From: a virus
DNA: 31,289 nt
IMG/VR virus record: IMGVR_UViG_3300031758_000356
Coordinates: 1 to 31,289 of that record
Reading direction: 5' to 3' (one strand)
Positions 8,550 through 26,878 of the stretch are shown piece by piece; within the stretch, counting starts at the first letter, position 1; each line of letters starts with the position of its first letter. The position numbers were made by a program, and so were the translations under genes. The notes beneath the pieces were generated by a model. It had not been told where the DNA came from, ran no database searches, and worked only from the letters and a program-made list of their open reading frames with translations.

Positions 8550-10034
8550 ATGCAGGCCGATGCTCTCGTCCAAGATCGGGACTTTCAACGGACTTTGGGT
8601 GCGTCTCCTTTCTCTGAGGGAGATCTTCCTCGTCTCTCTTCCGAAGTTGGTAAGGCTTACACCCGTCTGGACGACGACCAGAAGGCGCAGCTTCAGGAAC
8701 TCTCTGACGATCTGATGGAGTTCTCCACTGAGGAGCTTCGCACGTTTAAGTATTTTCTCGTGTATCTGCGCCAGAACCGGGCGCGCTACAGCGAGATCGT
8801 TTCCAAGATGTATGCCGGTGGGCTGATCGAGCAGGGCTCTCTCCCGGAAGCTTACTCGCCTGCGTTCTTCTCTTTCCTGACCAGCTTGGTCGATGGCATC
8901 CTTGTCAAGAAGAAGGAGCAGGAGACGACCCGCGGGTTTGCGAAGGGCGGCATCGTCAGTCTGAAGGCGGCGGCGGAGAAGGTCCGCAAGGCTGGCCGTG
9001 ACGGCGACACCGTTTTGGCTCACATCACACCTGCGGAAGCCGCTCTTCTGAAGAGCCGTGGCGGCGCGGGCACGATCAACCCGAAGACGGGTCTGCCTGA
9101 ATACAAGAGCATCTTCTCGAAGATTGGCAGCTTCTTCAAGAAGGCTGCTCCGATCATTCTCCCCATTGCCCTGAACTTCCTTGTTCCGGGCCTCGGCGCT
9201 ATCGCATCGGGCGCGATTGGCGCTGGCGTTGGCTCGCTGATCGGCGGTGCAAAGCCGCGTGACGCCCTGAAGGCCGCTCTCCTTGGCGGTCTGACAGGCG
9301 GAATTGGCGCGGGCATTAGCGGCGCGCTATCTGGGACAGGTTTCATGGCGGGCGTCACTGGCGCGCTCCCCAGCGGGTTTGGCGGAACGACCGCCGCTGG
9401 TCCGGGTTTCTTCGAGAGCATCGGAGAAAAGCTCGGGTTTAGCTCTGTTTCTGGTGCGGCACCTCCCGTTCCACCTAGCTCGATCCCCGTCCCCGCCGAC
9501 GGCACAATGGCCGGTGAGGCTTTTGGGGGCGGTTCGTTTGGCTCCGCCGCTGCTCGCACGGCAGAAGGCGCGAAAGCCGCCAGTTCCGGGCTTGGCATTG
9601 GAAGTCTTGCTGGTAAGGCGACGGATCTCATTAAGGAATATCCGAAGACGGCTGTCGCGCTCGGCCTCGGCGCGGGTGCGTTGTTAGCAGGCGCTGGCGG
9701 TGGGGACAAAGCACCTCCCCCGCTTGCTCGTGGTCCGGGCTCGCGGGAACTCATGGAGCAGAACCCGAGCCGCTACGTGTTCGACATCGCCAACTTCCGC
9801 CCCCGTTACACCACGGGCGCGGGACTATTCACGGCGGCGACCGGCGGTCTTGCCGCCAAGGGCGGCAAGGTCTCTGGTCCGGGAACCGAAACCAGCGATT
9901 CCATTCCTGCGCGTCTCAGCGACGGCGAGTTCGTCTTCACGGCGAAAGCTGTCAGAGGCGCTGGCGGCGGTGACAGAATGAAGGGCGCTCGCAAGATGTA
10001 CGAGCTTATGCACAAGTTCGAGCGGATGGCGTAA
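8550..10034 (+). CDS. Large glycine-rich internal virion protein
   Basis: The 494-residue product starts at ATG 8550. Residues 1-130 are acidic and helical. From about 195 to 285 there is a long Gly/Ala/Leu-rich hydrophobic stretch (LPIALNFLVPGLGAIASGAI and LLGGLTGGIGAGISGAL) of the kind that could insert into membranes during DNA ejection. The C-terminus (from about 435) has KGGKVSGPGTETSDSIPARL then SDGEFVFTAKAVRGAGGGDR, a signature I know from many phage internal or structural proteins. No catalytic motif is visible. Position before three other large Ala/Gly-rich proteins fits an internal core or ejection protein. Whether it is packaged would need proteomics. Confidence 0.7.
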   Translation: MQADALVQDRDFQRTLGASPFSEGDLPRLSSEVGKAYTRLDDDQKAQLQELSDDLMEFSTEELRTFKYFLVYLRQNRARYSEIVSKMYAGGLIEQGSLPEAYSPAFFSFLTSLVDGILVKKKEQETTRGFAKGGIVSLKAAAEKVRKAGRDGDTVLAHITPAEAALLKSRGGAGTINPKTGLPEYKSIFSKIGSFFKKAAPIILPIALNFLVPGLGAIASGAIGAGVGSLIGGAKPRDALKAALLGGLTGGIGAGISGALSGTGFMAGVTGALPSGFGGTTAAGPGFFESIGEKLGFSSVSGAAPPVPPSSIPVPADGTMAGEAFGGGSFGSAAARTAEGAKAASSGLGIGSLAGKATDLIKEYPKTAVALGLGAGALLAGAGGGDKAPPPLARGPGSRELMEQNPSRYVFDIANFRPRYTTGAGLFTAATGGLAAKGGKVSGPGTETSDSIPARLSDGEFVFTAKAVRGAGGGDRMKGARKMYELMHKFERMA

Positions 10035-10036
10035 TC

Positions 10037-11089
10037 ATGGCTGAGGTAACACAACAGGAACAGATTGTTCGCGAAGCCCCAGAGATCGAAGCCTATAAGC
10101 TCGGTCTTTTGGATCTTGCGAAGCAGCGCGCCGAAATCCCCGTCAATCTTCCTGCGATTGAGATTGCCGGTCTCATGCCGGAGCAGCTTACTGCACGTGA
10201 GCTTGCTGCGGAGGGCATCGGCTCCTATCGCCCATACCTCGATGCGGCCCTAGAAGCGTATCAGGCGGCAGCGTCGGGTTACGGTGCGCTTCCTTCGTAT
10301 GGTCAAGAGGCGATTGGCGCTGTTCGTCAGGGCGCGAATGTCGCTACCGATCTCTCCCTTCGCGGCGCGCAGGCTTACGATCCGACTGCTGTCAGCCAGT
10401 TTATGAACCCCTATCAGAGCGCGGTGACGCAGGAAGCTCTGAAGGAGATGCAGCGTCAGGCTGACATCGCCCGTACGCAGCAGGCCGCTCGCGCTGTCAA
10501 AGCGGGTTCGTATGGCGGCAGCCGCTTCGGCGTCGAGTCTTCTGAGCTTGCGCGTAATCTGGCGGACATCCAGTCGAAGCGTATCTTCGAGGACTACTCT
10601 ACGAACTACAGTCAGGCGCAGGCTGCGGCCATGAACGCCTTCCAGAACCAACAGGCTCGTCTTCAGCAGGCGGGTCAAACGGCGCTTGGTGCTGGCACTG
10701 CGCTTGGTCAGGCGGCGGTGTCTGGCGGTCAGTTGCAGCAGGCGGGTGCGGCGGGCATTGGTGGCCTTGGTCAACAGACCTCGGCCCTTGGTCAGCAGCT
10801 GTCGGGTCTTGGTCAGGGCGACGTATCGTTCCTGTATAATCTTGGCGAAAAGACGCGCGGCTACGAACAGTCTGTTCTGGACGCTGCGCGACAGACGGCA
10901 ATCCAGCAGGAATACGAGCCGTTCCAACGTGTCTCGTTCCTCAGCGACATCTACAAGGGTGCGCCGTCTTCGCAGCAGACGATCAGCCAGACCACGGCCC
11001 CCTCACCTTCGCTTATCTCACAGGCGGCGGGTCTCGGCATCGCTGGTCTGAGCGCGTACAATCTGTTTGGTGGCGGCAAGTCGCCGTAA
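10037..11089 (+). CDS. Internal virion protein (Ala/Gln-rich)
   Basis: This 350-residue protein starts at ATG 10037, two bases after the previous stop. It is mostly helical and Ala/Gln-rich. A central segment is diagnostic of a conserved phage structural family: AVSQFMNPYQSAVTQEALKE, then QQAARAVKAGSYGGSRFGVE (about residues 116-175). A Gly/Gln-rich stretch (LGAGTALGQAAVSGGQLQQA and following) occupies about 215-265. The C-terminus ends in a small hydrophobic segment (AAGLGIAGLSAYNLFGGG). The family is known from virions but has no established activity. Role as a component of the internal core is inferred from its neighbours. Confidence 0.7.
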   Translation: MAEVTQQEQIVREAPEIEAYKLGLLDLAKQRAEIPVNLPAIEIAGLMPEQLTARELAAEGIGSYRPYLDAALEAYQAAASGYGALPSYGQEAIGAVRQGANVATDLSLRGAQAYDPTAVSQFMNPYQSAVTQEALKEMQRQADIARTQQAARAVKAGSYGGSRFGVESSELARNLADIQSKRIFEDYSTNYSQAQAAAMNAFQNQQARLQQAGQTALGAGTALGQAAVSGGQLQQAGAAGIGGLGQQTSALGQQLSGLGQGDVSFLYNLGEKTRGYEQSVLDAARQTAIQQEYEPFQRVSFLSDIYKGAPSSQQTISQTTAPSPSLISQAAGLGIAGLSAYNLFGGGKSP

Positions 11090-11111: not shown

Positions 11112-13580
11112 ATGGCTGACGATTATGCCTCGATAGTTGAACAGGCTTATATCAACGAGACGGGTCGGGCTTCCGATCCGGAGGGGGCGGCTTATTGGAC
11201 GGGTCTTCTTGAGTCCGGAGCGATCAGTCCCGGCGACCTCAGCTCCTTGTTCTCCGGGACGGCGGAAGGAACCACCTTTGACCAAGCAGCTGCTAGGGCA
11301 GCTGAAGGAGCCGCTATTGGACAAGCGGTCGAGCCGAGTAGCGCCGGAACTGGCCCTAATCTTTTTGATAAAATCCGAGAGTTCAATCAAATGAACCCTG
11401 CGGACGGCGGCATCGCCAGTCTTGGCAGCGGCACGACGGCGGGTCAGGTTGCTCCAACCACGGCCCCCGAACTTCGGTCCTTCTTGGAAGGCCAGTATCA
11501 GTCCGAGTTTGGCCGTCAGTTTGATGCTCCGGGCCTCGACTATTGGGCGGACCAGATCCAGAAGGGAAACATCACCAAGGAGCAAGTCGCGGAGATCTTC
11601 TCTAAGAGCCCGGAAGGTCTGAAGTACGACATTGCAAACCTTGCGGCGGGCAAGACGACGGATGTTGGCTTTCTCCCTTCCGACCTTTTGAAGAGGTACA
11701 GCGATCTCCAAGCCGCGTATCAGACAGCCGTCTATCGCCCCGGAGACGTTGAGGGTCTGAAGTATTGGCTGGCTAATCCAACCGATTACGCGAAGGCGCT
11801 TGGTGGTAGCGACGAGGCTTTCATTCAAGAGGCTTATCGAAACACTCTTAAATATGCCCCAGATCCGGAAGGTCTGAAGTACTGGGTGGGTCAGTTGGCC
11901 GCGGGCAAGGTCACGCGGGCCGGTCTTCCCACCGCTCTGATGAACGCGACCAAAAAAGCAGAAGAAGAAAAAAAGAAGATTGAACAGCAGAAGATTGTCG
12001 CAGATAAGCAAGCGGTTGCTGGTCAAAGGAGTCAGTACCTCTACGACTTTGGCAACTTCCCGATAGTCGCTGGCACGCGAACAACGGCGGATGGAAGAGT
12101 CGTTCCAACCGTTAACCTCAATCTCAAACAGCGACCGAAGGTTAGCCTTGGGATTAAGGCGTTTGCCCCACTTAGTTTGACGGGATATGAGTACGATCCG
12201 TCTTCTGTCAGCCTTTTCGGAGGCAATCGGCTTTTTGGTGGGACCGGAATGACGAGCGGGAAGTCTGTCAGTCTCTTTGGTAATCCGGGAATGGCTCAGG
12301 CGGCATCAACAGGTGCGGCGCAAGAGGAAGTCGTCGCGGCAGCCAACGGCGGCATGATCTCGTCTGATCCTGTCATGCGTCGAGCGATGTTCAAGGCCGG
12401 TGGACCTGTGTCCTCTGTCGGCACCGGCATCACGTCCACGGTTGCTTCTCCGGAGGAGAACGCCAAGGCTCTCCAGACGATGTTTGCGCCGGGGTTCCGC
12501 AGCGGCGGCGAAGTGCAATACTTCCAAGAGGGCGGCGAGGCCGTTGACGAAGAGCGCGTGGGCGAGCAGGCGGCTGAGATGTCCGCCCTTGAGCGGCTGC
12601 GGGCGCAGACCCGTAATCCCGAGCCGCGCTTCAAGCCAGTGATGGAAGTCTTCCGCGAGAACCGAACGCTGCCTATCGACCGTGAGCAGGCGTATACGGG
12701 CCGTAGTATGCGTGGCGAGAACGTGGACGTGGTTCAGTCTCCGTACGCCGGGGGCATGGAAGGCTTTATGCCTCCCCAGATGCAGGATGTTTCTGCGCCA
12801 CCTGCGCCTAGATATTCCGCGGAAGAAAGAGCGCGGCTTGCCCGTCAGGCTGCGGCGGATCAGATCGCTGAACGCGAGATGTACCGTCAGGCTGAGGAGG
12901 ACCAAAGGCTCTATCGCGGCGCGGCTGCTGCCGCTCCGGCTGAGACGGCCCCGTCCAGAGCCACTGCGGAAAGCGCAAGGGAGCCCGTCAAGGACCGTCT
13001 CACGCTTCGTCTTGAGGAACTAAAGGCTGAACGCGAGGCCAATAAGGAGAAGCGTCGGGAGAACCAGCTTCTCGCGCTGATGCAGGCTGGCTTTGCCGCC
13101 GCCTCGGGTCGCAGCTCAAATGCTCTTGCGAACATCGCTGCGGGCGGCATCTCTGGCGTTCAGACGCTGGCTGAACTTAACAAGGATGTTCGTGCCGAAG
13201 ACCGCGCGCTTCGCAGGGAAATCCTTGAGACCGAGCTTACGCAAGAGCGTATGCGTGAGGCGGCTGCCGAACGTCGAGCCGGTCGTGAGCAGACGGCTGC
13301 CGAGCGCCAGCGCACGCTGTTGCAGACGGTTAGCTCTAATGCCCGTCAGGAGATCTCCTCGATCAGCCAGCTTATTGGGACTGAGGAAGGCAAACTCCTC
13401 ACTCCCGGCATTACCGAGGAGCAGAAGGCTCCGATCAAGTCGGAAATCGCTCGACTTAAAAATCAGCGAGAAGCGGCGCTCGAACAGATGTATGGTGTGT
13501 ACGAGAGCTTGGGGATACGGAGACCTCGGACGGTTGAACAAGAGTCCCCAGACTTTAAGTTCTTGGGCCAGAGAAGATAA
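11112..13580 (+). CDS. Large internal virion protein with DUF4214-like repeats
   Basis: This 822-residue protein starts at ATG 11112. The N-terminal third carries about four DUF4214-like helical repeats near residues 6-48, 126-172, 198-222 and 237-285, with the signature G-R-x-x-D-x-x-G-x-x-Y-W (for example PEGAAYWTGLLESG, APGLDYWADQIQKG, PDPEGLKYWVGQLAAG). Residues 330-500 are Gly/Ser-rich with NGGMISSDPVMRR and FKAGGPV elements. From about 560 the protein is strongly charged and coiled-coil-like (Glu/Arg/Ala-rich). DUF4214 occurs in surface and phage proteins without a known enzymatic role. A slippery A-run lies at 11969-11975. Packaging in the virion is inferred from context. Confidence 0.7.
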   Translation: MADDYASIVEQAYINETGRASDPEGAAYWTGLLESGAISPGDLSSLFSGTAEGTTFDQAAARAAEGAAIGQAVEPSSAGTGPNLFDKIREFNQMNPADGGIASLGSGTTAGQVAPTTAPELRSFLEGQYQSEFGRQFDAPGLDYWADQIQKGNITKEQVAEIFSKSPEGLKYDIANLAAGKTTDVGFLPSDLLKRYSDLQAAYQTAVYRPGDVEGLKYWLANPTDYAKALGGSDEAFIQEAYRNTLKYAPDPEGLKYWVGQLAAGKVTRAGLPTALMNATKKAEEEKKKIEQQKIVADKQAVAGQRSQYLYDFGNFPIVAGTRTTADGRVVPTVNLNLKQRPKVSLGIKAFAPLSLTGYEYDPSSVSLFGGNRLFGGTGMTSGKSVSLFGNPGMAQAASTGAAQEEVVAAANGGMISSDPVMRRAMFKAGGPVSSVGTGITSTVASPEENAKALQTMFAPGFRSGGEVQYFQEGGEAVDEERVGEQAAEMSALERLRAQTRNPEPRFKPVMEVFRENRTLPIDREQAYTGRSMRGENVDVVQSPYAGGMEGFMPPQMQDVSAPPAPRYSAEERARLARQAAADQIAEREMYRQAEEDQRLYRGAAAAAPAETAPSRATAESAREPVKDRLTLRLEELKAEREANKEKRRENQLLALMQAGFAAASGRSSNALANIAAGGISGVQTLAELNKDVRAEDRALRREILETELTQERMREAAAERRAGREQTAAERQRTLLQTVSSNARQEISSISQLIGTEEGKLLTPGITEEQKAPIKSEIARLKNQREAALEQMYGVYESLGIRRPRTVEQESPDFKFLGQRR

Positions 13581-13597
13581 TATCAAGGATATGACAG

Positions 13598-16500
13598 ATG
13601 CCGGTCTACGAGGTTCAAGCGCCTGATGGCACGGTCTTGCAGATTGAAGGACCGGAGGGCGCTTCTCAGGAGTCCATCCTGTCATACGCTAAAAATGTAG
13701 CGTACCCGGCCTTCCTTGCCGAAAAGCAAAAGCCCGAGCCCCAGCAATCTGTTCTCCGGCAGGTTGCTGACGTCCCCCTAAAGATTGGTGCGGGCGCAGT
13801 CTCTGGCGTTCGCATGATTGCTGACGCCTTTGGTGCGGGCTCTGCTGTATCAGAAAACCTGAAGGGTGCTGAGGGCTACATCGAGAGCCTTCTCTCCGCA
13901 CAGTCCAAAAAAGATTCCGCCGAGATTGCTCGCATCATGGACGATGCGAAAGACAAGGGCGTCTACGATCAGGTCGTGGCAGCGGTCAACGCGCTGAAGG
14001 TGGCCCCGATTGATCTTGTCGCGCAGGGTCTCGGCACGATGGCCCCGACTATTATCGGTGGTCTTGCTCTTAGGGTTGGCGCGCCCGCAGTCGGCGTTTT
14101 GATGGGTGCTGGCACGATCAAGGGGGCCATCTATGACGAGACCAAGAAGGTCTTGATGGAGAAGGGGGTATCCCCCGGCCTCGCTGACGAAATCGCGCAG
14201 GAAGCGCAGTCGTACGATGGCAAGAACATCGACCAGATTCTTATTGGTGCAGGTCTTGGTGTTGCTGACGCCTTGACAGGAGCCAGCCGTATCCTGACAA
14301 ACGTCGCTAGGCAGGCCGCAGGAAAGGCCGTGGCCGAGGGCGTAGTAAAGGAGATCGGCAGAAACCTCCCGTCTCGACTTGTACGTGGTGCGGCGGGAGA
14401 AGCTCCGCTCGAAGCTCTGCAAGGCGGTCAAGAACAGCTGGCACAAAACCTCGCTATTCAGCGCGAGGGGTTTGAGCGTCCTACCTTCCAAGGTGTCGCC
14501 GGTCAGGCGGCGCTGGAAGGGTTGGTTGGCGGCATCACGGGCGGCGCAGCGCGCGGAGCCTTTGGCCGTCGCCCCGGAGAGCTTCCCCCTGTGCTTCCAC
14601 CCGTCAGGCCCGGAGAGGAGCCATCCCCCGCTCCGGCAGTTCCCCCTGCTACTCCGGGTCTGACACCCCCGTCGCCTCCCGGAACCCCTCCCGGCGCCGC
14701 GGCTGCGGCGGGGGCACTTCAGACTCCGGCGTCTATTCAGAATGTCCTGAGCGTCACGGGCGGCGCTGTGCCCGCAACGCTTCAAGGCTCCGTGCAGTTG
14801 GCCCAACAGCCGACGCTCCCGGCCCCCGGACCAACGACCATTCAAATCCCGACGCCTCCGCCGATCTCGGTGCCGGGGACGCTGGGCACTACGCTCGCCC
14901 CGACATCTGTCACGGGCGGGCTTGAGCCGACCATTCGTCCGCTGGAGCCTGTCACCACTCCGCCCGCTCTCCAGCTTCCGACCCTTCCGAGGGATCTCGC
15001 TGGCGCGAAGCCCCGCTTCAGTCGTATTCCGCTGTCATTTGCGAGCGACATCGACAAGGCGTTGTACATAACCGCGCAGCAAACAAAGTCTCCGCGAGAC
15101 GCTGACTACCGCAAGTGGCTCACGAGCCTCGGCTACAATCAGTCGGACATTACGCGCCTTGGCAATCAGGTCCGCAACCGTATCAAAAACTTAGTCGGAC
15201 AGGCTCCGGGTGCAGAGGTCGTTCCAATCCCGACCTTTGCGGCGCTTCCGGCTGCCGGTGCTGCCCGTACGCGTGCTGCTGCTCCCCTTCTTGCTGTTCC
15301 TCCGGCGGCTGCTCCGACGCCTGCTCCGGCTCCCACTCCCGCCGTCTCGCCTCTTGCTGCGGCACTTACTCCTGTCCCAGCGCCAGCGGTGGCTCCCCCT
15401 GCGCCCGCAGCCGCTCCCGCTCCGACACCTTCCCGTGCACTTGCTCTGGCGTTTCAGAGGACGCCGGAGCAGCATCGCTTCAAGTTTGTGAAGACGGGCG
15501 TGCAGTCCATCCCCGAGATCGAGACGGCCCCGCTAATTGTCGAGCTTTCGTCTGTCATCTCTTCCGAGGTGCCGGGTTACGACCCGGCATTGCAGCCGCG
15601 TGACAGAACGAGGACTGGATCGGATATTCAGATTGCCGACATCATCTCGAAGTTTGATCCCCAACTTCTGACCTTTGACCTTAGCACCAAGCGTGGTGCG
15701 CCCATCGTCAATGAGAACATGAATGTTGAGAGCGGCAACGGGCGCATCATGGCCCTGCGTCGCATCTACGAATCACAGCCTGCTCTGGCGGAAGCCTACA
15801 AGGCCGAACTTACCCGCCTTGGGTTTGACATTTCAGGCATGAGCAATCCCGTTCTCATTCAACGTCGCGGGACGCCCCTCACGCCGGAGGAGACGCAAGC
15901 GTACGTCGGAGCTGCGAACACGCCCGACGTTATGCAGATGAGCGCGGCTGAACTGGCGAAAGAGGACGCCAAGAAGATCACTGTCGAGATGCTCGACCGC
16001 ATCCCAGAGGGTCGTGACTACACCTCCCAACGGTTCGTTGTTGATTTTCTGCGGAAACTCCCGGCGAACGAGCTTAACACCATGCTTAATGCAAAGGGTG
16101 AGTTAAGCCCGGACGGCGAGCGCCGCATCCGAAACGCCGTATTTGCAAAGGCTTTTGGTGACTCGCAGGCTATTGCGCGCATTGCGGAGTCCACCGACGA
16201 CAACATCCGGTCGATCTCGAACGCCCTGATCGACAACCTCGTCAACTTCGCGAAGCTGCGTCTGTCCATCGAGAATGGTCGGACCGACCCCGGTTTCTCA
16301 ACCGACCCGCTCATCGACGCCATCAACCGCATCTCTCAGATGCGTAACACCGGCACGACGCTCGAAAACTATCTGTCGCAAGTGGATGCCTTTAATCCCA
16401 TTCCGCCGATGACAGAGAAGTTCATGCGCCTCTTCTACAGCGAGAGGGCGCGGGCGCTTGGTCGGGCGAAGATCTCTGACGGTCTTGGCTTCTATGCACG

Positions 16501-19500
16501 TGAAGCTTTGAAGGTCACTCCTCCGGATGAAGGTCTTGGTCTCGGTCTGGGCCTTCCCGAAATCACGCCGATGAGTCTGATCGACGCGGCGATCAAGCGC
16601 GCACAAGGCGTGGTCGAAGGTCAGGGGACCATGGTCCTTCAACCTCCGGCTCCGGCGCAAGCTCCGATCCCGACCCCGGCATCTCCGCCTGTCACGGTGG
16701 AACCTGTCACCACAAATGTGGTTACGCCCGCGGCAGCGCCTCTCGCCATCACTGTCACAAGCCGGAAGCGCATCAACCTCGGACCTGTTGAGGGGACGAT
16801 CACGCGCATCACATTCTCTGACGGCACGGCTGTCGATATTCAGCGCATGGATAGCGCAAGCACGATGGGTCTGCCGGGATGGCATGACATTAACAAGAGT
16901 GTGACAGGAAACTCCTACCTTGGTGACACCGAGAAGGACGCAATCGCACGTCTGCTCGAACAGAAGAACGCGCAGAAGTTTGTGCCGAAGGCTGCTCCTG
17001 TGGGCGTGCTTCCCACACCGGAGCCCACGGACCTTGGACCTTCGAACAAGCCGGTTATCGTCGGTGATGTGCCGCAGTCTGTGAAGGACAGCACAAGGAT
17101 TACATATCTCGGCGGGGCGAAAGAGTTCTTCGATAGAGAACTCCCCGGCATTGACGGGGTTATTCTGGAAACGGCTTACCGCCTGTATCCGGGGACGGAT
17201 ATTAGTTTTGGGTTAGAGGGCATAACTGGTTACGGAAACGCACGGGTATCTGGCGGCGAAGGCAGAAGAGTCGTCATACGTGTCAGCCCCTCAAACCTGA
17301 AGATGACCTTCGGCAAGGCTGGTGGAGACTACCGGACCAAAATACTGCACACTGTGTTCCACGAAATGTCTCATCCGATTGAGTATTTCTGGATCAACAA
17401 CGCTCCTCGTGACACGCAGATTGCAATTCTTGAGCAGTTCAAAAAAGAACGCAGTGGAACTGCGGCACAGAGGGCTGGTCTTATACGCTATGTCCTAGAG
17501 CAGCAGTCTGACCGTAGCGATCTCGACACGTTCAAGCAGAGGCTATTAAAGACTTTTGGTCTTACGGAGCAAGAGTTCAATAAGCTTCTTGGGACAAAGC
17601 GCGACGTTGGTGCTGGGTCCACGGACATTTATCGTGAGGGTCTTAGCACCAAGTACTACAGGAGCTACTCCGAGTGGGTGGCTGAGAAGGGCGCGCAATG
17701 GCTATCGAAGGAGCTTGAAGGCAGGCTCCCGAAGAATGTTTTCGAGAAGTTCCAAAAGGAAATCCTCGGCAAGCTTCGCACGATCTATGAGACGGTGGCT
17801 AGAGTTCTTGGTATCCCGACAAGCACGGGAGCTTTTGAGAAGCTTTTGTCCGATGTTTGGGGGACCAAGACAGTTACTCCGCGTGGGTTAGTTGATGGGG
17901 TCGTCTCTAAAAGGGAAAAGACAGACCGTATCTCCGATGCGGGGATGGTCGCTTACGAAGAAACAGTTGATGGGAACAACGGCCCGCTGAACAGGCTTCC
18001 GGGCGCTGACACCGCACGCCTGAACTCCGAGAGATTTACGAAGCTAACCAACAAGGTCCGCGAGTTCTTCGACCCCCGCTTCACCATTGACAGCTACCCG
18101 ATCCTGTCGGAGTTCCGAAACCTGCTGTTCGGCAAGATCGGGATGTCTACGCAGCGCGCCCGCGATCTTTCCAACACGATCTCGAACGGTACGCCGGAGG
18201 TCCAGACTCAGGTCTATAATTACCTGACGACGCGAGATGCTAACCCGAGCATGATTGCGGACGAGAAGATCCGCGCAGCTGCCGTTCAGGTGAAACAGGA
18301 GATCAACCGCACCGCACAGGAGATGGTTGATAAAGGTCTTCTGTCACAGGAAAGCATGGACAAGTACTACGACAGATACCTGCCTCGTATGTACCTGTAC
18401 TACGAAGCCACTGGTCGCGGCATCAAGAGCCCGAACATGGGCATCAGCGCGCGTGAGTATCTGAAGCTTCGTGATGAGCAGCTTTCTGAGGAAGAACGCA
18501 AGCTGCTTGGCGAAATCAAAAACCCTGCCTTCCTGTCCTACGTCGCCCTGTCTCGTCCCCAAAAGGACTTGGCGATGATGGAGTACTTCCAGCAGGTCAG
18601 GGATCAAACGGGCGTCAACTGGATTGCGCCAAACTCCCTCGTCGAGTTCAACGGCGAGATGGTGACGCCTTACTGGCTTATGTCAGAGGCGAACATCATG
18701 GATGAGATCGCCACGCTGACAGAGCAGACTGACCCGGAAGCCGCGAAGATGATGCGTGATCGCGCCGACGAGATGCGTCGTGTTGCGGCTCCGGCGATCT
18801 CCCGCGAGCAGGCCATCCAGATCCCGGAAACGTACCGGCGTCTTCCTGACAGCCCGCGTTATGGCGCGCTTCGTGGGGCCATCATTCAGAAAGGCATCTA
18901 CGACGACATCGTTGGGACAATGGTGGCTATTCCGATCAGCGATAAGCCGTTCGTCCAAGCCCTCCTTGGCGACGAGCAGAGTTTGGTCGTAAAAGCGAAC
19001 CAGATATGGAAGATGTCGAAGATCACGTTGAACGTGCCTTCGCAAATCCGTAACGCCATCTCCAACGCCATCGCCATGAACGTGTTTGGCGGTATCCCGC
19101 TGCACCGCATCGCCCCCCTTCTCGCCCGCGCGTCCAAGGAAGTCTCGCAAGACGGACAGTACTGGCAGGAGGCGCAGAAGTACGGCATCACTGGCGGCAC
19201 CATGTCGGCTGCGGAAATGATTAAGATCCGCACGGAACTGGAACAGTATCTCCGTAAGGGTGGTGGGGACGGTATCTTCGGAGCGTTCGCTGCTGCGCGT
19301 ATCGCGGCAGGCAAGGCAATCGGTGCAGCGTCTGACACGTATCAGGCCGTCGAAGTCCGCTTCAAGATGGCGATGTTTATCCACGGTCGTGAGAAGGGCC
19401 TGACCCCCTCGCAGGCCGTCGATGCGGCGAACGACGCGCTGTTTGACTACACGCTTGTGAACCCGAACATTCGCTGGCTGCGTAATTCACCTATTGGCCT

Positions 19501-20380
19501 GCCGTTTGTCACCTACTATTACAAGGCGCTGCCGAAGCTGATCGAGACGGCGTACAAGCATCCGATGCGATTTGCTCCGTACGTCGCCCTGATGTACGCC
19601 ATCCCGCAGATGACGATGCTTGCCCTCGACATTGACGATGATGACTACGAGTCGCTTCGCAAGTCCCTGCCGGAGTACATCCGTAACAAGGGCTCGCTGT
19701 TCATCCTTCCCTACAAGGATGAGAATGGTCGCTGGCAGTACATCGACACCAGCTACTTCTTCCCGTGGGCCGCGTTCACCGATCCGATTGTTCAGGCGAT
19801 CTATCGTCAGGACCCTGCGGGTGGGCTGAAGGAAGCCGCCAAGCTCATCACGCCCTCTGGTCCCGTTGTTACGGCGCTCGCGGGTATCACCACGGGCCGC
19901 GATCCTTTCACTGACAAGGAGATCGTCGATCCGAGGCAGACGCCCCAGAACAAGGCGCTCGCTCTCGTGTCGTACGTCTGGAACCAAGCCATGCCGTCGA
20001 TGCTGGCGATTGATATGGTCAACCCGCAGAACGCATCGGGCGCTATCCCGCGCCTGTATAACGACGCGTTTGGCTCGGGAACGGGTCTCGACAAACGCGG
20101 CCAGCCGAAGCCGGAGTTTCTTGCTGACGCGGCTCGCCTGTTCGGCGCAAACATCAGCCCGCTCGAACCCGCAACAGCGCGCGCCCTAAACATCAACCAT
20201 CAGCTTGCAAAGATCCGCGCGTCCGAGAGCCTCCGCTCGCAGGTCGCCAAGGACCAGAGCCTCACGCCCGCAGCGCGCCAGCGTGAGATCGCAAGCCTGA
20301 ACGAGAAAATCCGCGAGGACTACAAGAAGCTGCAAGAGTACGCGACCGAGACAAGCCGAGCTACAGCTTTGAAGAAGTAA
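13598..20380 (+). CDS. Giant polyvalent protein (ParB/DdrB-like and metallopeptidase-like domains)
   Basis: This 2260-residue protein starts at ATG 13598. Residues 1-45 form the small VYEVQAPDGTVLQIEGPEG module seen at the start of phage internal proteins. Residues 135-330 are helical and partly hydrophobic. Pro/Ala-rich linkers lie at about 325-470 and 550-620. Residues ~625-960 resemble the DdrB-like ParB domain of phage polyvalent proteins, including ESGNGR (G713-R716). Residues ~1180-1440 hold an HExxH motif (H1255-E1256, H1259 in HEMSHPIEYF) with candidate third ligand E1359 or E1363. The C-terminal ~780 residues resemble large polyvalent-protein-associated helical domains (LPD38-like). 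Such proteins are injected with phage DNA to act on host defences or proteins; that role is inferred. Confidence 0.75.
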   Translation: MPVYEVQAPDGTVLQIEGPEGASQESILSYAKNVAYPAFLAEKQKPEPQQSVLRQVADVPLKIGAGAVSGVRMIADAFGAGSAVSENLKGAEGYIESLLSAQSKKDSAEIARIMDDAKDKGVYDQVVAAVNALKVAPIDLVAQGLGTMAPTIIGGLALRVGAPAVGVLMGAGTIKGAIYDETKKVLMEKGVSPGLADEIAQEAQSYDGKNIDQILIGAGLGVADALTGASRILTNVARQAAGKAVAEGVVKEIGRNLPSRLVRGAAGEAPLEALQGGQEQLAQNLAIQREGFERPTFQGVAGQAALEGLVGGITGGAARGAFGRRPGELPPVLPPVRPGEEPSPAPAVPPATPGLTPPSPPGTPPGAAAAAGALQTPASIQNVLSVTGGAVPATLQGSVQLAQQPTLPAPGPTTIQIPTPPPISVPGTLGTTLAPTSVTGGLEPTIRPLEPVTTPPALQLPTLPRDLAGAKPRFSRIPLSFASDIDKALYITAQQTKSPRDADYRKWLTSLGYNQSDITRLGNQVRNRIKNLVGQAPGAEVVPIPTFAALPAAGAARTRAAAPLLAVPPAAAPTPAPAPTPAVSPLAAALTPVPAPAVAPPAPAAAPAPTPSRALALAFQRTPEQHRFKFVKTGVQSIPEIETAPLIVELSSVISSEVPGYDPALQPRDRTRTGSDIQIADIISKFDPQLLTFDLSTKRGAPIVNENMNVESGNGRIMALRRIYESQPALAEAYKAELTRLGFDISGMSNPVLIQRRGTPLTPEETQAYVGAANTPDVMQMSAAELAKEDAKKITVEMLDRIPEGRDYTSQRFVVDFLRKLPANELNTMLNAKGELSPDGERRIRNAVFAKAFGDSQAIARIAESTDDNIRSISNALIDNLVNFAKLRLSIENGRTDPGFSTDPLIDAINRISQMRNTGTTLENYLSQVDAFNPIPPMTEKFMRLFYSERARALGRAKISDGLGFYAREALKVTPPDEGLGLGLGLPEITPMSLIDAAIKRAQGVVEGQGTMVLQPPAPAQAPIPTPASPPVTVEPVTTNVVTPAAAPLAITVTSRKRINLGPVEGTITRITFSDGTAVDIQRMDSASTMGLPGWHDINKSVTGNSYLGDTEKDAIARLLEQKNAQKFVPKAAPVGVLPTPEPTDLGPSNKPVIVGDVPQSVKDSTRITYLGGAKEFFDRELPGIDGVILETAYRLYPGTDISFGLEGITGYGNARVSGGEGRRVVIRVSPSNLKMTFGKAGGDYRTKILHTVFHEMSHPIEYFWINNAPRDTQIAILEQFKKERSGTAAQRAGLIRYVLEQQSDRSDLDTFKQRLLKTFGLTEQEFNKLLGTKRDVGAGSTDIYREGLSTKYYRSYSEWVAEKGAQWLSKELEGRLPKNVFEKFQKEILGKLRTIYETVARVLGIPTSTGAFEKLLSDVWGTKTVTPRGLVDGVVSKREKTDRISDAGMVAYEETVDGNNGPLNRLPGADTARLNSERFTKLTNKVREFFDPRFTIDSYPILSEFRNLLFGKIGMSTQRARDLSNTISNGTPEVQTQVYNYLTTRDANPSMIADEKIRAAAVQVKQEINRTAQEMVDKGLLSQESMDKYYDRYLPRMYLYYEATGRGIKSPNMGISAREYLKLRDEQLSEEERKLLGEIKNPAFLSYVALSRPQKDLAMMEYFQQVRDQTGVNWIAPNSLVEFNGEMVTPYWLMSEANIMDEIATLTEQTDPEAAKMMRDRADEMRRVAAPAISREQAIQIPETYRRLPDSPRYGALRGAIIQKGIYDDIVGTMVAIPISDKPFVQALLGDEQSLVVKANQIWKMSKITLNVPSQIRNAISNAIAMNVFGGIPLHRIAPLLARASKEVSQDGQYWQEAQKYGITGGTMSAAEMIKIRTELEQYLRKGGGDGIFGAFAAARIAAGKAIGAASDTYQAVEVRFKMAMFIHGREKGLTPSQAVDAANDALFDYTLVNPNIRWLRNSPIGLPFVTYYYKALPKLIETAYKHPMRFAPYVALMYAIPQMTMLALDIDDDDYESLRKSLPEYIRNKGSLFILPYKDENGRWQYIDTSYFFPWAAFTDPIVQAIYRQDPAGGLKEAAKLITPSGPVVTALAGITTGRDPFTDKEIVDPRQTPQNKALALVSYVWNQAMPSMLAIDMVNPQNASGAIPRLYNDAFGSGTGLDKRGQPKPEFLADAARLFGANISPLEPATARALNINHQLAKIRASESLRSQVAKDQSLTPAARQREIASLNEKIREDYKKLQEYATETSRATALKK

Positions 20381-20429
20381 GGGTTGTCAGAAGTTCGGAA
20401 AGCAAGGCTTTCTGGGTTTCTGACAATCC
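20381..20429. terminator. Strong hairpin between convergent genes (likely bidirectional terminator)
   Basis: Immediately after the stop codon of the giant gene, a 12-base arm (20381-20392) pairs with 20418-20429 (TTCTGACAATCC) with one wobble, enclosing an inner stem GAAAGC/GCTTTC around an AAG loop (20398-20412). The position between convergent genes fits transcription termination. A partial repeat follows at 20453-20483. Confidence 0.7.
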
Positions 20430-20483
20430 GGGTGCAGTTTGTCGTCATCCTAAAAAGCAAGGCTTTCTGGAAATCTGACAATC
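20398..20483. repeat. Imperfect 31-base direct repeat at the convergent junction
   Basis: Positions 20398-20428 and 20453-20483 match at 27 of 31 bases. Both contain AGCAAGGCTTTCTGG followed by TCTGACAATC. The second copy reaches into the stop codon of the leftward helicase and on the minus strand forms AGAAAGC-CTT-GCTTTTT, a short hairpin with a T-run that can terminate leftward transcription. The duplication may have produced one terminator for each direction. Confidence 0.75.
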
Positions 20484-21936
20484 AGATCAGCCACTCTTTG
20501 TACCCCTCCGAAAGCACCTCGCTCGCGATGTTGATCTTGTCGCGCAGCGCCTTCAGAACCTTCTCCTCGACCGTGTTCTCCGTAACGAGGTCGATGTAGG
20601 TCACGTTGTTCTTCTGCCCGATCCGGTGAGCGCGGTCCTCGGACTGGATGCGGACCTCCAGATCGAAGCTGTTCGAGTAGTAGATGACCGTCGAGGCTTC
20701 TGTCAGGGTCAAGCCGTACCCGCCAGTCCGAGACTGTCCGACAAAGAACCGCAACGGATGATCCGGGTCTTGGAAGCTCAAGACGATGGTCTGTCGAACG
20801 TCGGGGTGGGTGCTGCCCGCATACACAGCCACGGACTCCTGACCGTACCGTTCAGCTATCGCTTTCTCGATGGCCTTCAAATCTTCGACGAAGACGCCCC
20901 AGATGATGACCTTTCCTGTCACCTCCTCCAAGACTTCCATGAGTTCTGACAGCTTGTTCGTTGACAGCCTCTCAATCTGTCCGTCGTCCGATCTGACAAA
21001 CCCGGAGCAAATCTGCTGAAGCCGAAGCATCTGTGTCAGAACATTCTGAGCTGTCACGAGACCCCCATCCTTTTCCAGAAGGGTGACAGCGTTATCCTTC
21101 ATCTGCTTGTACGCGACAGCCTGCTCGTCCGTAAGCTCGACATTACGACGGATGTAGAGCTTATCGGGAAGATCAAGGCAGTCCTTCTTCAGAATGCGGT
21201 ACGAAAAGGCGTCAAGCTTCGAGGAAAGCTCGTCGAGGTTCTGGTATCCGACGACCTGATTGAAGCTGTGCGATCCAAGGGTGCGGCGCACGATCCTCGC
21301 GTACCGGCCCTGAAAAGAGTAGAACGATCCGTGCCCCAACATGAATGGCCCGAGGAACGCGCACTGACTATATAGGTCCATAGGAGACTGGGTGATCGGA
21401 GAGCCGGTCATCACGCGACGGTACGCGGCCCTCGATCCAATGTTAATGATGTTCTTCGTTCGCTTCGCTTTCGGGTTCTTGATCGTGGTGCTTTCGTCCA
21501 CCGCCACCAGAGCCCGATGGCTTGAGACAAACTCCAAAGCGTAGTTGGTTCCTTTCACCGTGGACAGAGCCTCGATGTTCATCACCATTATTTTTAACCG
21601 CCAGTCATCTTTAAAAGCACTGTGTAAGTGATCGAGAACTTTTTTACTGTTTGAAGGAGACCACGCAAAAATGTCAGTCTCTTTAAGAACATTATCCGGA
21701 AGGTGCTTGAGAAGCTCCGTCTTCTCCCAGTTCTTGTAGACGCCCTTGGGCGCAACGATCATCGCAGCCGTGATCTTGCCCTCAAGAAACAGCGCGCCAA
21801 TCGTGTCGATCAGGATCTTCGACTTGCCTGTCCCCATTTCACAGAACAGAGCGTACTCACCGCGATCCCATGAACGATCTAAAGCCTCTTGCTGATGAGC
21901 GAACGGTTCCATTCTTGACTGATAGTTCATAACCAT
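20482..21936 (-). CDS. SNF2-family (SF2) DNA helicase/translocase
   Basis: I place the start at ATG 21936 (484 residues, MVMNYQSRM...) because GAGGAGGT lies four bases upstream; a start ten codons further up would include this site. Motifs are complete: Q-motif region FAHQQEAL, Walker A EMGTGKS (33-39), Ia-like IVAPKGVYKNW, DEST box (147-150), TGSPITQSP (motif III), and C-terminal SRTGGYGLTLTEAS and SEDRAHRIGQ (motifs V and VI). The RIGQ ending is characteristic of SNF2 enzymes. Phage members probably remodel protein-DNA complexes or replication and recombination intermediates. It is the only minus-strand gene between the virion and replication blocks, transcribed from its own promoter. Confidence 0.9.
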   Translation of the reverse strand: MVMNYQSRMEPFAHQQEALDRSWDRGEYALFCEMGTGKSKILIDTIGALFLEGKITAAMIVAPKGVYKNWEKTELLKHLPDNVLKETDIFAWSPSNSKKVLDHLHSAFKDDWRLKIMVMNIEALSTVKGTNYALEFVSSHRALVAVDESTTIKNPKAKRTKNIINIGSRAAYRRVMTGSPITQSPMDLYSQCAFLGPFMLGHGSFYSFQGRYARIVRRTLGSHSFNQVVGYQNLDELSSKLDAFSYRILKKDCLDLPDKLYIRRNVELTDEQAVAYKQMKDNAVTLLEKDGGLVTAQNVLTQMLRLQQICSGFVRSDDGQIERLSTNKLSELMEVLEEVTGKVIIWGVFVEDLKAIEKAIAERYGQESVAVYAGSTHPDVRQTIVLSFQDPDHPLRFFVGQSRTGGYGLTLTEASTVIYYSNSFDLEVRIQSEDRAHRIGQKNNVTYIDLVTENTVEEKVLKALRDKINIASEVLSEGYKEWLI

Positions 21937-23837: not shown

Positions 23838-25364
23838 ATGGACTTGGCACGGCGGTTTTTTGACCTCTTCAGAGGTAACGACCGAGCGCATGGAACTTTC
23901 AGCGTTCAAACCGACAGAGAGCGGGATGGGAAGAAACAAGGTGTAGCGCGCGTTCTCAAAGAAACAACGACCACTGACCATTGGGCCGCGCACATATCCG
24001 GCACGCAGGGTCTTGGCATCATCCCCATCAAGGACAACAACAGCTGTCACTGGGGCGCTATCGACATCGACGTTTACAACCTCGATCACAAGGTCCTGAT
24101 CTCGAAGATCAAGACGCTGAACATCCCCGGCATCGTCTGCCGCAGCAAGTCTGGCGGCGCGCACCTGTTTTTCTTTTTCAAGGAGGAGCTTCCGGCCTCG
24201 GTCCTCCAACCAAAGCTGCGCGACATCGCGTCAGTCCTCGGCTATGCGGGGTCGGAGATATTCCCAAAGCAGACGGAGATTCTTGTCGAGCGCGGGGACA
24301 CCGGCAACTTCCTGAACATGCCCTACTTCATGGGCGAGGACACGACGCGGTACGGGTTCAATCGTGATGGCGTGTCGCTTGGAATGTCAGAGTTCCTCGA
24401 CTACGCGGAGAGTATGCTCCTCGACCTTGATCCTTTCCTCGATGTCCAGACGAACACCGTCAAGGACGAGACAGTCCTTCCCAACGGACCCCCATGTCTC
24501 CAGCATCTTTGCTCAGAAGGGTTCGGAGAGGGGAGCAGGAACAACGCCCTGTTCAGCCTCGGCGTCTATGCGCGTCTGTCAGACAAGCAGAACTGGGAAA
24601 ACCTGATACAGAAATATAACATGGACTACATGAAGCCGCCGCTGCCAGCGAATGAGGTGGCGACGATCATCAAGCAGCTTCAAAAGAAAGAGTACTACTA
24701 CAAGTGCGAGGACCAACCCCTCGTCAACTTCTGCAACAAAAGCCTGTGCATGACGCGCAAGTACGGCGTCGGCCCCGGCGAGTTGAACAACGAGCTATCG
24801 AGCCTGACAAAGATCGACGGCGATCCGCCGATATGGTTGCTCAACGTCGATGGCAGTCGCGTCGAACTAAGCACAGAAGCCCTTGTCTCCCAGCTAGTTT
24901 TTCAACGCGAGTGCGTGGCGCAGGTGAACAAGTATCCTGTCGGCATGAGCGCAAAAGCGTGGCAGGCTCGGATGCAGGTGCTTCTCAACAATCTCACCAT
25001 CATCGAGGTCCCGCCGGACGCGACCCTCAAGGGAGCCTTCGAAGACCTGCTGTTCTCGTTCTGCTGCGACCGAGCCAAGGGCACCGAACGCGAGGACATT
25101 CTGCAAGGCATCGCCGTCTGGATGAAAGGTCGCGTCTACTTCCAGATCAAGGACGTGATGAAGCATCTGCTGGTGAACGACTTCAAGACCTACACGTCGA
25201 ACCGGATCGCGCTGCGTGTGAAGGAGTTGGGTGCGGAGAAGATGTTCTGGCAGGTCAAGGGGAAGGGTGTCCACGTCTGGGGCTTTCCAGAGGAGTTCTT
25301 CGGCAGCGCGAGTTCTGTCAACCTCGACCTGCCCGAACGCAAGCGCCGGGACGACATCCTATGA
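23838..25364 (+). CDS. Archaeo-eukaryotic-type primase (PrimPol, TOTE-like)
   Basis: This 508-residue protein starts at ATG 23838. It has the archaeo-eukaryotic primase core: D76-x-D78 in WGAIDIDVY (metal-binding motif I) and S105-G-G-A-H109 in SKSGGAHLFFFF (nucleotide-binding sxH motif). The spacing resembles the TOTE/PrimPol group. A C-terminal part shows a PriCT-like helical segment (PLPANEVATIIKQLQKKEYY) and cysteines C290, C299 and C304 that may bind zinc, followed by about 190 further residues. It would lay down RNA or DNA primers on the phage template. It overlaps the helicase by four bases (ATGA). No DnaG-type or T7-type primase is visible, so this is presumably the replisome primase. 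Confidence 0.85.
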   Translation: MDLARRFFDLFRGNDRAHGTFSVQTDRERDGKKQGVARVLKETTTTDHWAAHISGTQGLGIIPIKDNNSCHWGAIDIDVYNLDHKVLISKIKTLNIPGIVCRSKSGGAHLFFFFKEELPASVLQPKLRDIASVLGYAGSEIFPKQTEILVERGDTGNFLNMPYFMGEDTTRYGFNRDGVSLGMSEFLDYAESMLLDLDPFLDVQTNTVKDETVLPNGPPCLQHLCSEGFGEGSRNNALFSLGVYARLSDKQNWENLIQKYNMDYMKPPLPANEVATIIKQLQKKEYYYKCEDQPLVNFCNKSLCMTRKYGVGPGELNNELSSLTKIDGDPPIWLLNVDGSRVELSTEALVSQLVFQRECVAQVNKYPVGMSAKAWQARMQVLLNNLTIIEVPPDATLKGAFEDLLFSFCCDRAKGTEREDILQGIAVWMKGRVYFQIKDVMKHLLVNDFKTYTSNRIALRVKELGAEKMFWQVKGKGVHVWGFPEEFFGSASSVNLDLPERKRRDDIL

Positions 25365-26878
25365 ACATCATCCTTGGACCTCCCGGAACAGGGAAGACGA
25401 CCCGTCTTCTGACGCTCGTCGAGAGCTACATGGAAGCGGGTGTCCCGCCCGACCGGATCGGATACCTGTCGTTCACAAGACGTGCCGCGCACGAGGCGAT
25501 CTCCCGCGCCTGCGCCCGCTTCAAGATGACAGAGAAGGACTTCCCGTACTTCCGGACGCTGCACAGTCTGGCCTACCACCAGCTTGGTATTGGCAAGAAC
25601 AGCATCATGACCGGCAAGCACTACCGGGAAGTTGGTGACTGGCTGAAGATCGGCGGCTTCTCCGATGGGACCACGCTTCCCGAAGGGCCGTTCGCGGACT
25701 TCGGCTTTGGCGACAAGTTCCTGGAGATCATCAACATCGCCCGCATCTGCAAGACGCCGCTGCGCGAGGTCTACAACGGATCGTCTGTCCCGCTGCGGAC
25801 GGACTGGAGCCGCGTGGACTACGTGGATCGGGGGCTGCGCGTCTACAAGAAAGACAATCACGTCTACGACTACACCGACATGCTCGAAATGTTCATCGAG
25901 CGCGAGGTCGCCCCCAGCCTTGAGGTCGTGCTGATCGACGAGGTGCAGGACCTGTCACCGCTCCAGTGGCAGATGGTTCACGCCATCATCGCCAAAGCTA
26001 AAGAAGTCTACATCGCAGGTGATGACGACCAAGCGATCTATCGCTGGGCGGGCGCTGACGTGGATTACTTCGTCCGGCTTGAGGGTAAGGTGGAGGTGCT
26101 GGGCCAGAGCTACCGCATCCCTGCCGCACATCACGACATCAGCCAGAAGGTCATCAACCGGATCTACAACCGCCGCCAAAAGGACTTCCTGCCACGGGAA
26201 GACAAAGGCGAGGTGCAGTGGTACAGGCACAGCGAAGAAGTGGACCTGTCAGCCGGTGACTGGCTGCTGCTGTCGCGCACAAGAAAAGGCGCTAACAATC
26301 TGGAGCAGGAGGTTCGGCAGCGCGGGTTCCTTTACTCGTACAACGCCAGCACCAGCATCGAGTCCGAGATCGTTGACGCGGTGAGGAACTGGACCGACCT
26401 GCGCGAAGGCAAGCGCCTACGCGCGTCTGACATCAAGAAGATTTACAAGTACATGGCGCTGGGGACAGAGGTCGCCTACGGCCATAAGACGATGCCGGGG
26501 GTGGACGATACGCTGTTCTTGGGTATCGACGATCTGATCTCGGACCACGGCCTTTTGCATACGCGCCCGTGGGAAGAAAGCATGGCGAAGATCCCCGAGG
26601 TGGATCGCCGCTACCTTCAAATCTGCATCCGCAACAACGAGTCCTTCAAGGACAAGCCCCGCATCACGATCTCCACAATACACGGGGCGAAAGGAGGAGA
26701 GGCGACCAGCGTCCTGTTGCTGACAGATGGCGTCCGCCGAAACAACAGCCTATGGAAACGCAATGCCTACGACGAAGACGACGAGGCCAGAGTCTTCTAC
26801 GTGGGTCTGACGCGGGCGAAGAAGAGCCTGCATCTCATTCATCCAATGGTGTCGAGGGGCTATGACATCCCACACTAG
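25361..26878 (+). CDS. UvrD/PcrA-like SF1 DNA helicase
   Basis: The start is ATG 25361 in the ATGA overlap with the primase; 505 residues result. Motifs are complete for superfamily 1A: Walker A GPPGTGKTT (6-14), IGYLSFTRRAAHEA (Ia), LIDEVQDLSP with D193-E194 (II), GDDDQAIYRWAGAD (III), GQSYRIP (IV), TISTIHGAKGGEA (V) and VFYVGLTRAKKSLHL (VI, R485). It lacks the long 2B insertions of bacterial UvrD, consistent with a compact phage form. It would unwind DNA with 3'-5' polarity, by analogy. Placement between primase and polymerase suggests a role as the main replication helicase, because no DnaB-like gene is seen. Confidence 0.92.
   Translation: MNIILGPPGTGKTTRLLTLVESYMEAGVPPDRIGYLSFTRRAAHEAISRACARFKMTEKDFPYFRTLHSLAYHQLGIGKNSIMTGKHYREVGDWLKIGGFSDGTTLPEGPFADFGFGDKFLEIINIARICKTPLREVYNGSSVPLRTDWSRVDYVDRGLRVYKKDNHVYDYTDMLEMFIEREVAPSLEVVLIDEVQDLSPLQWQMVHAIIAKAKEVYIAGDDDQAIYRWAGADVDYFVRLEGKVEVLGQSYRIPAAHHDISQKVINRIYNRRQKDFLPREDKGEVQWYRHSEEVDLSAGDWLLLSRTRKGANNLEQEVRQRGFLYSYNASTSIESEIVDAVRNWTDLREGKRLRASDIKKIYKYMALGTEVAYGHKTMPGVDDTLFLGIDDLISDHGLLHTRPWEESMAKIPEVDRRYLQICIRNNESFKDKPRITISTIHGAKGGEATSVLLLTDGVRRNNSLWKRNAYDEDDEARVFYVGLTRAKKSLHLIHPMVSRGYDIPH

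Follow-up and report, generated by a model that had tools for sequence, protein, structure and literature searches.

A giant phage polyvalent protein carries an exchangeable zincin-like domain between predicted N4 vRNAP-like and LPD38-type ends

Polyvalent proteins are already known as a class (Iyer et al., 2017), and several described systems resemble in part the giant protein analyzed here. DdrB of phage P1 (995 aa) is a virion protein recovered with 59.5% coverage (PMC9024508) and contains a homologous ParB region (model match 26-434, E=1e-63) and an HExxH motif (HELGH at position 872). In contrast to the present protein, it has no detectable N-terminal module or LPD38-type C-terminus. Membership of its HExxH region in the zincin clade described below was considered and was not detectable by hhalign (P=25%). 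The virion RNA polymerase (vRNAP, gp50) of phage N4 has a related N-terminal module and a zincin located after the cargo (hhalign P=80% to the zincin of the present protein); it is encoded by the last gene of the structural cluster, and the polypeptide is injected before the DNA. According to work cited as unpublished (PMC4496689), genome injection requires the N-terminal domain of N4 vRNAP, and encapsidation requires its C-terminal domain. The present protein differs from N4 vRNAP by having no detected RNA polymerase domain and by a C-terminal module that does not align with that of N4; homology between the two C-terminal regions was considered and received no support from hhalign (P about 2%).

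The DarB-like LPD38 proteins (JC1 gp69 and the Bcep22 group) are also giant virion-associated polyvalent proteins, with LPD38 at the extreme C-terminus (PMC9144972), whereas their cargo consists of lytic transglycosylase, methylase/helicase and LPD3 domains and the C-terminus of the present protein has diverged beyond the reach of the Pfam LPD38 model. Proteins WPJ21802 and WPJ21803 of Pseudoalteromonas phage vB_PunP_Y3 share with the present protein the N-module, the ParB region, and the C-terminal module, but they have a far larger cargo (3421 and 1027 aa, ART domain included) and a different HExxH domain. The Y3 record (L009, OR779980.1) additionally contains an exact direct duplication of ~1 kb (19175-20175 and 20175-21176) between the two giant ORFs, the end of WPJ21802 being identical to the start of WPJ21803 over 319 aa; this duplication may be genuine or may stem from the assembly. 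Finally, gp123 of Cellulophaga phage phi18:3 carries the C-terminal module and an MS/MS virion annotation, but contains no HExxH motif and no ParB match.

The gene under study is located in a viral fragment of 31 kb (IMG/VR record IMGVR_UViG_3300031758_000356, 31,289 nucleotides), the whole of which was analyzed and is referred to as the window. The giant gene and its upstream neighbors are as follows.

6284-8152, + strand: virion structural gene, upstream of the giant gene
8550-10034, + strand: gene with a tape-measure-like stretch, upstream of the giant gene
10037-11089, + strand: DNA-ejection-protein-like gene, upstream neighbor (phrog_4287, E=3.4e-8)
11112-13580, + strand: DUF4214 gene with three repeats, 822 aa, upstream neighbor (PF13946, E=2e-26)
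13598-20380, + strand: giant gene, a single open frame of 2260 aa without internal stop, terminal gene of the ejection/structural cluster

Thus, the order of the structural, tape-measure-like, ejection, and DUF4214 genes places the giant gene at the final position of an ejection cluster, as is the case for the vRNAP gene in N4. The DUF4214-repeat gene separates the giant gene from the DNA-ejection gene. On the 3' side, a convergent SNF2 helicase gene is followed, on the + strand, by genes encoding an AEP primase, a helicase, and DNA polymerase A. Positions 23838-26878 contain this primase, which is related to TOTE conflict systems (PF22548), and then the helicase, whose longest ORF has an overlapping start; the true start of the helicase probably lies further downstream. 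No promoter, terminator, tRNA, or Rfam feature was prominent in the window.

An identical giant gene was found in a second IMG/VR contig of 58.7 kb (L001). The protein encoded by the orthologue L003 is about 86% identical to the window protein, and the C-terminal parts of further relatives are 76% and 74% identical. Comparison of the window with L003 gave dN values of about 0.06-0.11 and dS values of about 0.7-1.2, corresponding to dN/dS ratios of about 0.07-0.16 for the main folded domains. Purifying selection in this pair indicates that the giant ORF is a coding gene. A scan of genome contigs added just two distant relatives, related in the C-terminal part only; E-values of iterated HMM searches were inflated through self-inclusion and are given no independent significance. 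Scans of the whole protein against Pfam, NCBIfam, and PADLOC revealed no family other than ParB. A candidate membrane helix at residues 151-170 was discarded, its mean hydropathy (1.7) being too weak for a claim. The protein was divided into the following segments.

13598-13732, + strand: residues 1-45, 'MPxYEVxAPxGxxxxIExPEG' segment, exchanged among orthologues
14138-14617, + strand: residues 181-340, Gly/Ala-rich N4-vRNAP-like module (phrog_2206, HMM, and hhalign)
14618-15007, + strand: residues 341-470, Pro/Ala-rich linker (composition; fast divergence, dN up to 0.77)
15008-15277, + strand: residues 471-560, small conserved domain ('Linker' HMM, E of 6e-9 or better in L038-L045)
15521-15868, + strand: residues 642-757, DdrB-like ParB domain with ESGNGR (PF18763, E=3.1e-24)
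15869-16687, + strand: residues 758-1030, extension conserved with ParB (phrog_5143 match 640-952)
16745-16957, + strand: residues 1050-1120, small conserved domain before the zincin (about 60-70% identity in L012, L036, and L079)
17048-17935, + strand: residues 1151-1446, predicted zincin (metallopeptidase-like) domain (AlphaFold core, VIA-align)
17360-17374, + strand: HEMSH, H1255-H1259, predicted zinc ligands and catalytic E1256
17666-17701, + strand: YSEWVAEKGAQW motif with E1359, predicted third zinc ligand (invariant EWxA; model helix 228-244)
18083-20377, + strand: residues 1496-2260, putative divergent LPD38-type C-terminal module (profile-profile comparison, BFVD Foldseek, phi18:3 gp123)

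A preliminary description of the locus had proposed a phage polyvalent protein, and this proposal was borne out, since at least two disparate domains (ParB, zincin-type, and C-terminal module) are present in a protein encoded beside virion genes. The ParB/DdrB-like domain that it had located by the ESGNGR motif falls inside a PF18763 (DdrB-ParB) match spanning residues 642-757, with a score of 85.9 bits for a cut-off of 27.6, which assigns the domain to this family; it is the sole Pfam domain in the protein. The following extension is common to P1 DdrB and phage Y3, and the PHROG families matching residues 640-952 carry no functional annotation (unknown function). The ParB domain is predicted to act as a DNase/NTPase or to bind DNA. 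It behaves as optional cargo, as it is missing from L038-L045. The Pro/Ala linkers were likewise recovered, with residues 331-640 composed of 20% Pro and 17% Ala.

The first 45 residues are only 36% identical between the window protein and L003, versus 85% in the next module. Sixteen collected giant or terminal structural proteins start similarly, and the segment could be a packaging or docking tag. The 'MPxYEVxAPxGxxxxIExPEG' start also recurs on unrelated terminal structural proteins, namely L007 (455 aa), L008 (588 aa), and L039-L045. Downstream, model positions 155-416 of phrog_2206 (virion RNA polymerase) match residues ~95-321 of the window protein, and the same model matches the N-termini of five other relatives, with E-values of up to 1e-18. 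In profile-profile comparisons, the N-module matched the N-terminal region of N4 vRNAP (alignment columns ~270-430) with P=77% and E=2e-5 for the combined profile. The link reached P=95-96% with sister profiles, via relatives (reversed controls below 3%), and P=28% when the closest family was used alone. Residues ~180-340 therefore appear to be a divergent form of the N4 vRNAP N-terminal module, the direct link being moderate and the link through intermediates strong. A T7-type RNA polymerase domain was not detected: no Pfam RNA polymerase model matches the giant protein, and the phrog_2206 match is confined to the model positions given above. The preliminary description had left residues 135-330 unassigned and suggested that they might harbor additional effector domains; this region overlaps the N4-vRNAP-like module.

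An AlphaFold model of the last 765 residues (pLDDT 63) is predominantly helical. The segment (residues 1496-2260) was also found close to the C-terminal end of 17 other giant proteins, which differ in their N-terminal parts, and subsequently of four more. A second group of C-termini, found downstream of the zincin in 29 other proteins of this zincin family, matched the window group in hhalign (P=97.5%, E=9e-12; reversed control 0.1%). The Pfam model of LPD38 (PF18857) gave no match in the giant protein up to an E-value of 10, nor in the records of the window and 15 relatives. It did match in 6 of 299 other genomes, and the corresponding LPD38 proteins were used for a profile test. These proteins matched the second group with E=1e-70 over 707 columns, and their C-termini matched the group of the window with P=95% and E=3e-8 over 324 columns (reversed control 0.1%). 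A Foldseek search of BFVD with the C-terminal model retrieved 59 predicted viral proteins at E<=1e-3, with TM values below 0.5, including many entries named 'large polyvalent protein' or LPD38 and others bearing ART, zeta toxin, RelA/SpoT, methylase, and lytic transglycosylase names. On the basis of the profile and Foldseek matches, the most suitable interpretation of the C-terminal segment is a divergent module of the LPD38 superfamily, lying below the Pfam cut-off. VIA-align of the same model against the PDB gave mainly short helical matches at residues 694-765 and was set aside. In Pelagibacter phage HTVC010P, the C-terminal module occurs alone, as a 504-aa protein encoded among structural genes (L113, 4809-6323). 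The ~780 residues that the preliminary description had called LPD-type helical sequence are thus helical and apparently of LPD38 type, but they are better read as a conserved virion or delivery module than as a reservoir of effectors.

Relatives sharing this module have been detected in virions. The phi18:3 gp123 protein is annotated 'based on experimental MS/MS proteomics analysis'; it matched the C-terminal models with E=0.017 for the window family alone, 4e-6 without the Y3 group, and 4e-91 with the Y3 group. The DarB-like gp69 of Burkholderia phage JC1 (4515 aa) was represented by 51 unique peptides in CsCl-purified virions (PMC9144972), and LPD38 occupies residues 4195-4401 of its 4515 residues. 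By homology to these relatives and to P1 DdrB in the ParB region, and given the position of its gene, the window protein is probably packaged in virions.

A pattern search for the HEMSH region identified 50 loci, of which 40 were aligned (residue numbers are equal to 1129 plus the position in the first sequence of the alignment). Residues H1255, E1256, H1259, Y1353, E1359, W1360, and A1362 were invariant in all 40 relatives. The preliminary description had reported a zinc-protease motif with several downstream Glu candidates; the H-E-H residues are conserved as expected, its numbering of E1256 was correct, and E1359, within EWxA, is the only invariant residue among the candidates. The core of the domain was modeled by AlphaFold with pLDDT values above 90; one helix carries HExxH and a subsequent one (model helix 228-244) carries E1359. 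The top rows of VIA-align were zincins or zincin-like proteins (YbeY, anthrax lethal factor, DPP III, ERAP1, LTA4H, PPEP-3/2, SPRTN, and BepA), with middling Z scores of 5-8, values under 8 possibly reflecting a common arrangement according to the note of the tool. Foldseek matches of the zincin model were weak (best E=0.11). Location of HEMSH in a non-protease fold devoid of a third ligand, which the preliminary description had raised against its own proposal, is not what the model indicates: AlphaFold predicts a zincin-type core, and the invariant E1359 is a candidate third ligand. Together, these results support, without proving, a zincin-type core with a plausible third ligand, and the domain is predicted to bind metal and to cleave proteins.

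No Pfam model matches the zincin of the window, IrrE/M78 scoring weakly for 14 relatives, and PDB sequence searches revealed no relative of the zincin or of the C-terminus. Iyer et al. distinguish 12 MPTase clades among polyvalent proteins. By the Pfam comparison, the EWxA zincins form a putatively unrecognized clade.

The zincin sequences split into two clades (100/100 support for the split) and the LPD38-type C-termini into two groups, and all four combinations exist. Zincins of clade A are associated with the window C-terminus in the window family and with the other C-terminus in L038-L045. Those of clade B are associated with the window C-terminus in L079 and with the other C-terminus in most loci. 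In L079, identity to the window protein is 0.10-0.35 over residues 1121-1440, versus about 0.6 and 0.72 in the flanks, and the zincin lies on the opposite side of the 100/100 split. The replaced stretch extends from about residue 1121 to about residue 1470. In this orthologue, the zincin alone has been replaced by one from another clade. L079 and L080 are identical DNA and do not provide independent support for the swap. This natural replacement of the protease alone indicates that the zincin is a separable module. The small domain at residues 1050-1120 stays beside the swapped zincin; it was also aligned in Microcystis phage Mae-Yong1326-1. Across 32 complete ORFs, the distance from HExxH was 1108 +/- 124 residues to the C-terminus and 1050 +/- 275 residues to the N-terminus.

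Our preferred reading, to which we give somewhat better than even odds, is that of a packaged and ejected polyvalent protein of a podovirus-like phage, in which the zincin separates the ParB cargo from the delivery module. The giant protein would be made late and packed in the phage head, the LPD38-type C-terminal and N4-vRNAP-like N-terminal modules serving incorporation and ejection, and would enter the cell with the phage DNA. The cargo located between the end modules would consist of the DdrB-like ParB domain and the zincin. The latter would most likely act on its own chain, or on other copies of the protein, by cutting in the vicinity of the flexible linkers; this cleavage would detach the ParB cargo from the delivery module at the C-terminus, either prior to entry or following it. 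Self-processing by polyvalent zincins has already been proposed by Iyer et al., and N4 vRNAP retains a metallopeptidase region yet is packaged unprocessed (PMC5512222). Thus, self-cleavage before packaging is not general.

The position of the zincin and the swap data are consistent with self-processing, and also with a host-directed protease under diversifying selection. Direct host targeting is the main rival, although we consider it unlikely to be the correct explanation. According to this alternative, the zincin and the ParB domain are the true effectors after ejection, the protease cleaving a host protein involved in defence or regulation and the ParB domain acting on host or rival DNA, and no self-processing occurs. 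Such a role has been proposed by Iyer et al. for some polyvalent zincins (PMC5512222), and the fold relatives of the domain include protease domains of secreted toxins. The zincin also diverges faster than the C-terminal module (59% versus 78% identity in L011, and 48% versus 75% in L012), and replacement from a distant clade, as in L079, is what an arms race predicts. However, the near-fixed distance between HExxH and the C-terminus, and the constant place of the zincin before the C-terminal module in the 32 ORFs, suit processing better. No known defence-system family was matched, a result that says little on counter-defence. A role against host defences, which the preliminary description had attributed to polyvalent proteins of this type, is a candidate function of the window protein.

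A purely structural or ejection protein, in which the ParB and zincin-like domains aid assembly or passage through the envelope and any enzymatic activity is secondary, is improbable. The entry for P1 DdrB reads 'Aids DarB addition to capsid' (PMC9024508), and the free-standing module of HTVC010P points in the same direction. In contrast, invariance of both His ligands, of the catalytic Glu, and of the third Glu in 40 divergent copies is unexpected for an inactive scaffold, and the C-terminal module is paired elsewhere with unrelated cargo bearing the enzyme names retrieved by Foldseek (methylase, ART, RelA/SpoT, and lytic transglycosylase). An early intracellular protein that is never packaged is highly implausible, as the gene ends a structural cluster and relatives sharing its modules were detected in virions.

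What is added to the polyvalent proteins already described is a zincin clade that is swapped as a module, together with an assignment for each end of the protein. More tentatively, the LPD38-type C-termini might be a general chassis for packaging and ejection, the EWxA zincin acting as a cargo-release module exchanged independently of both cargo and chassis. If so, the window protein would represent one configuration of an injected delivery system with interchangeable parts, namely a chassis, a cutter, and a payload.

Giant injected phage proteins are widespread, and their 'LPD' ends are mostly unexplained. Profile and structure comparisons now connect the C-terminal end of the window protein with LPD38 and with virion-detected proteins, and its N-terminal end with the injected polymerase of N4. 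With these assignments and a swap restricted to the protease, the proposal of self-processing by polyvalent zincins becomes directly testable. The same observations suggest a modular route for packing proteins into phage heads.
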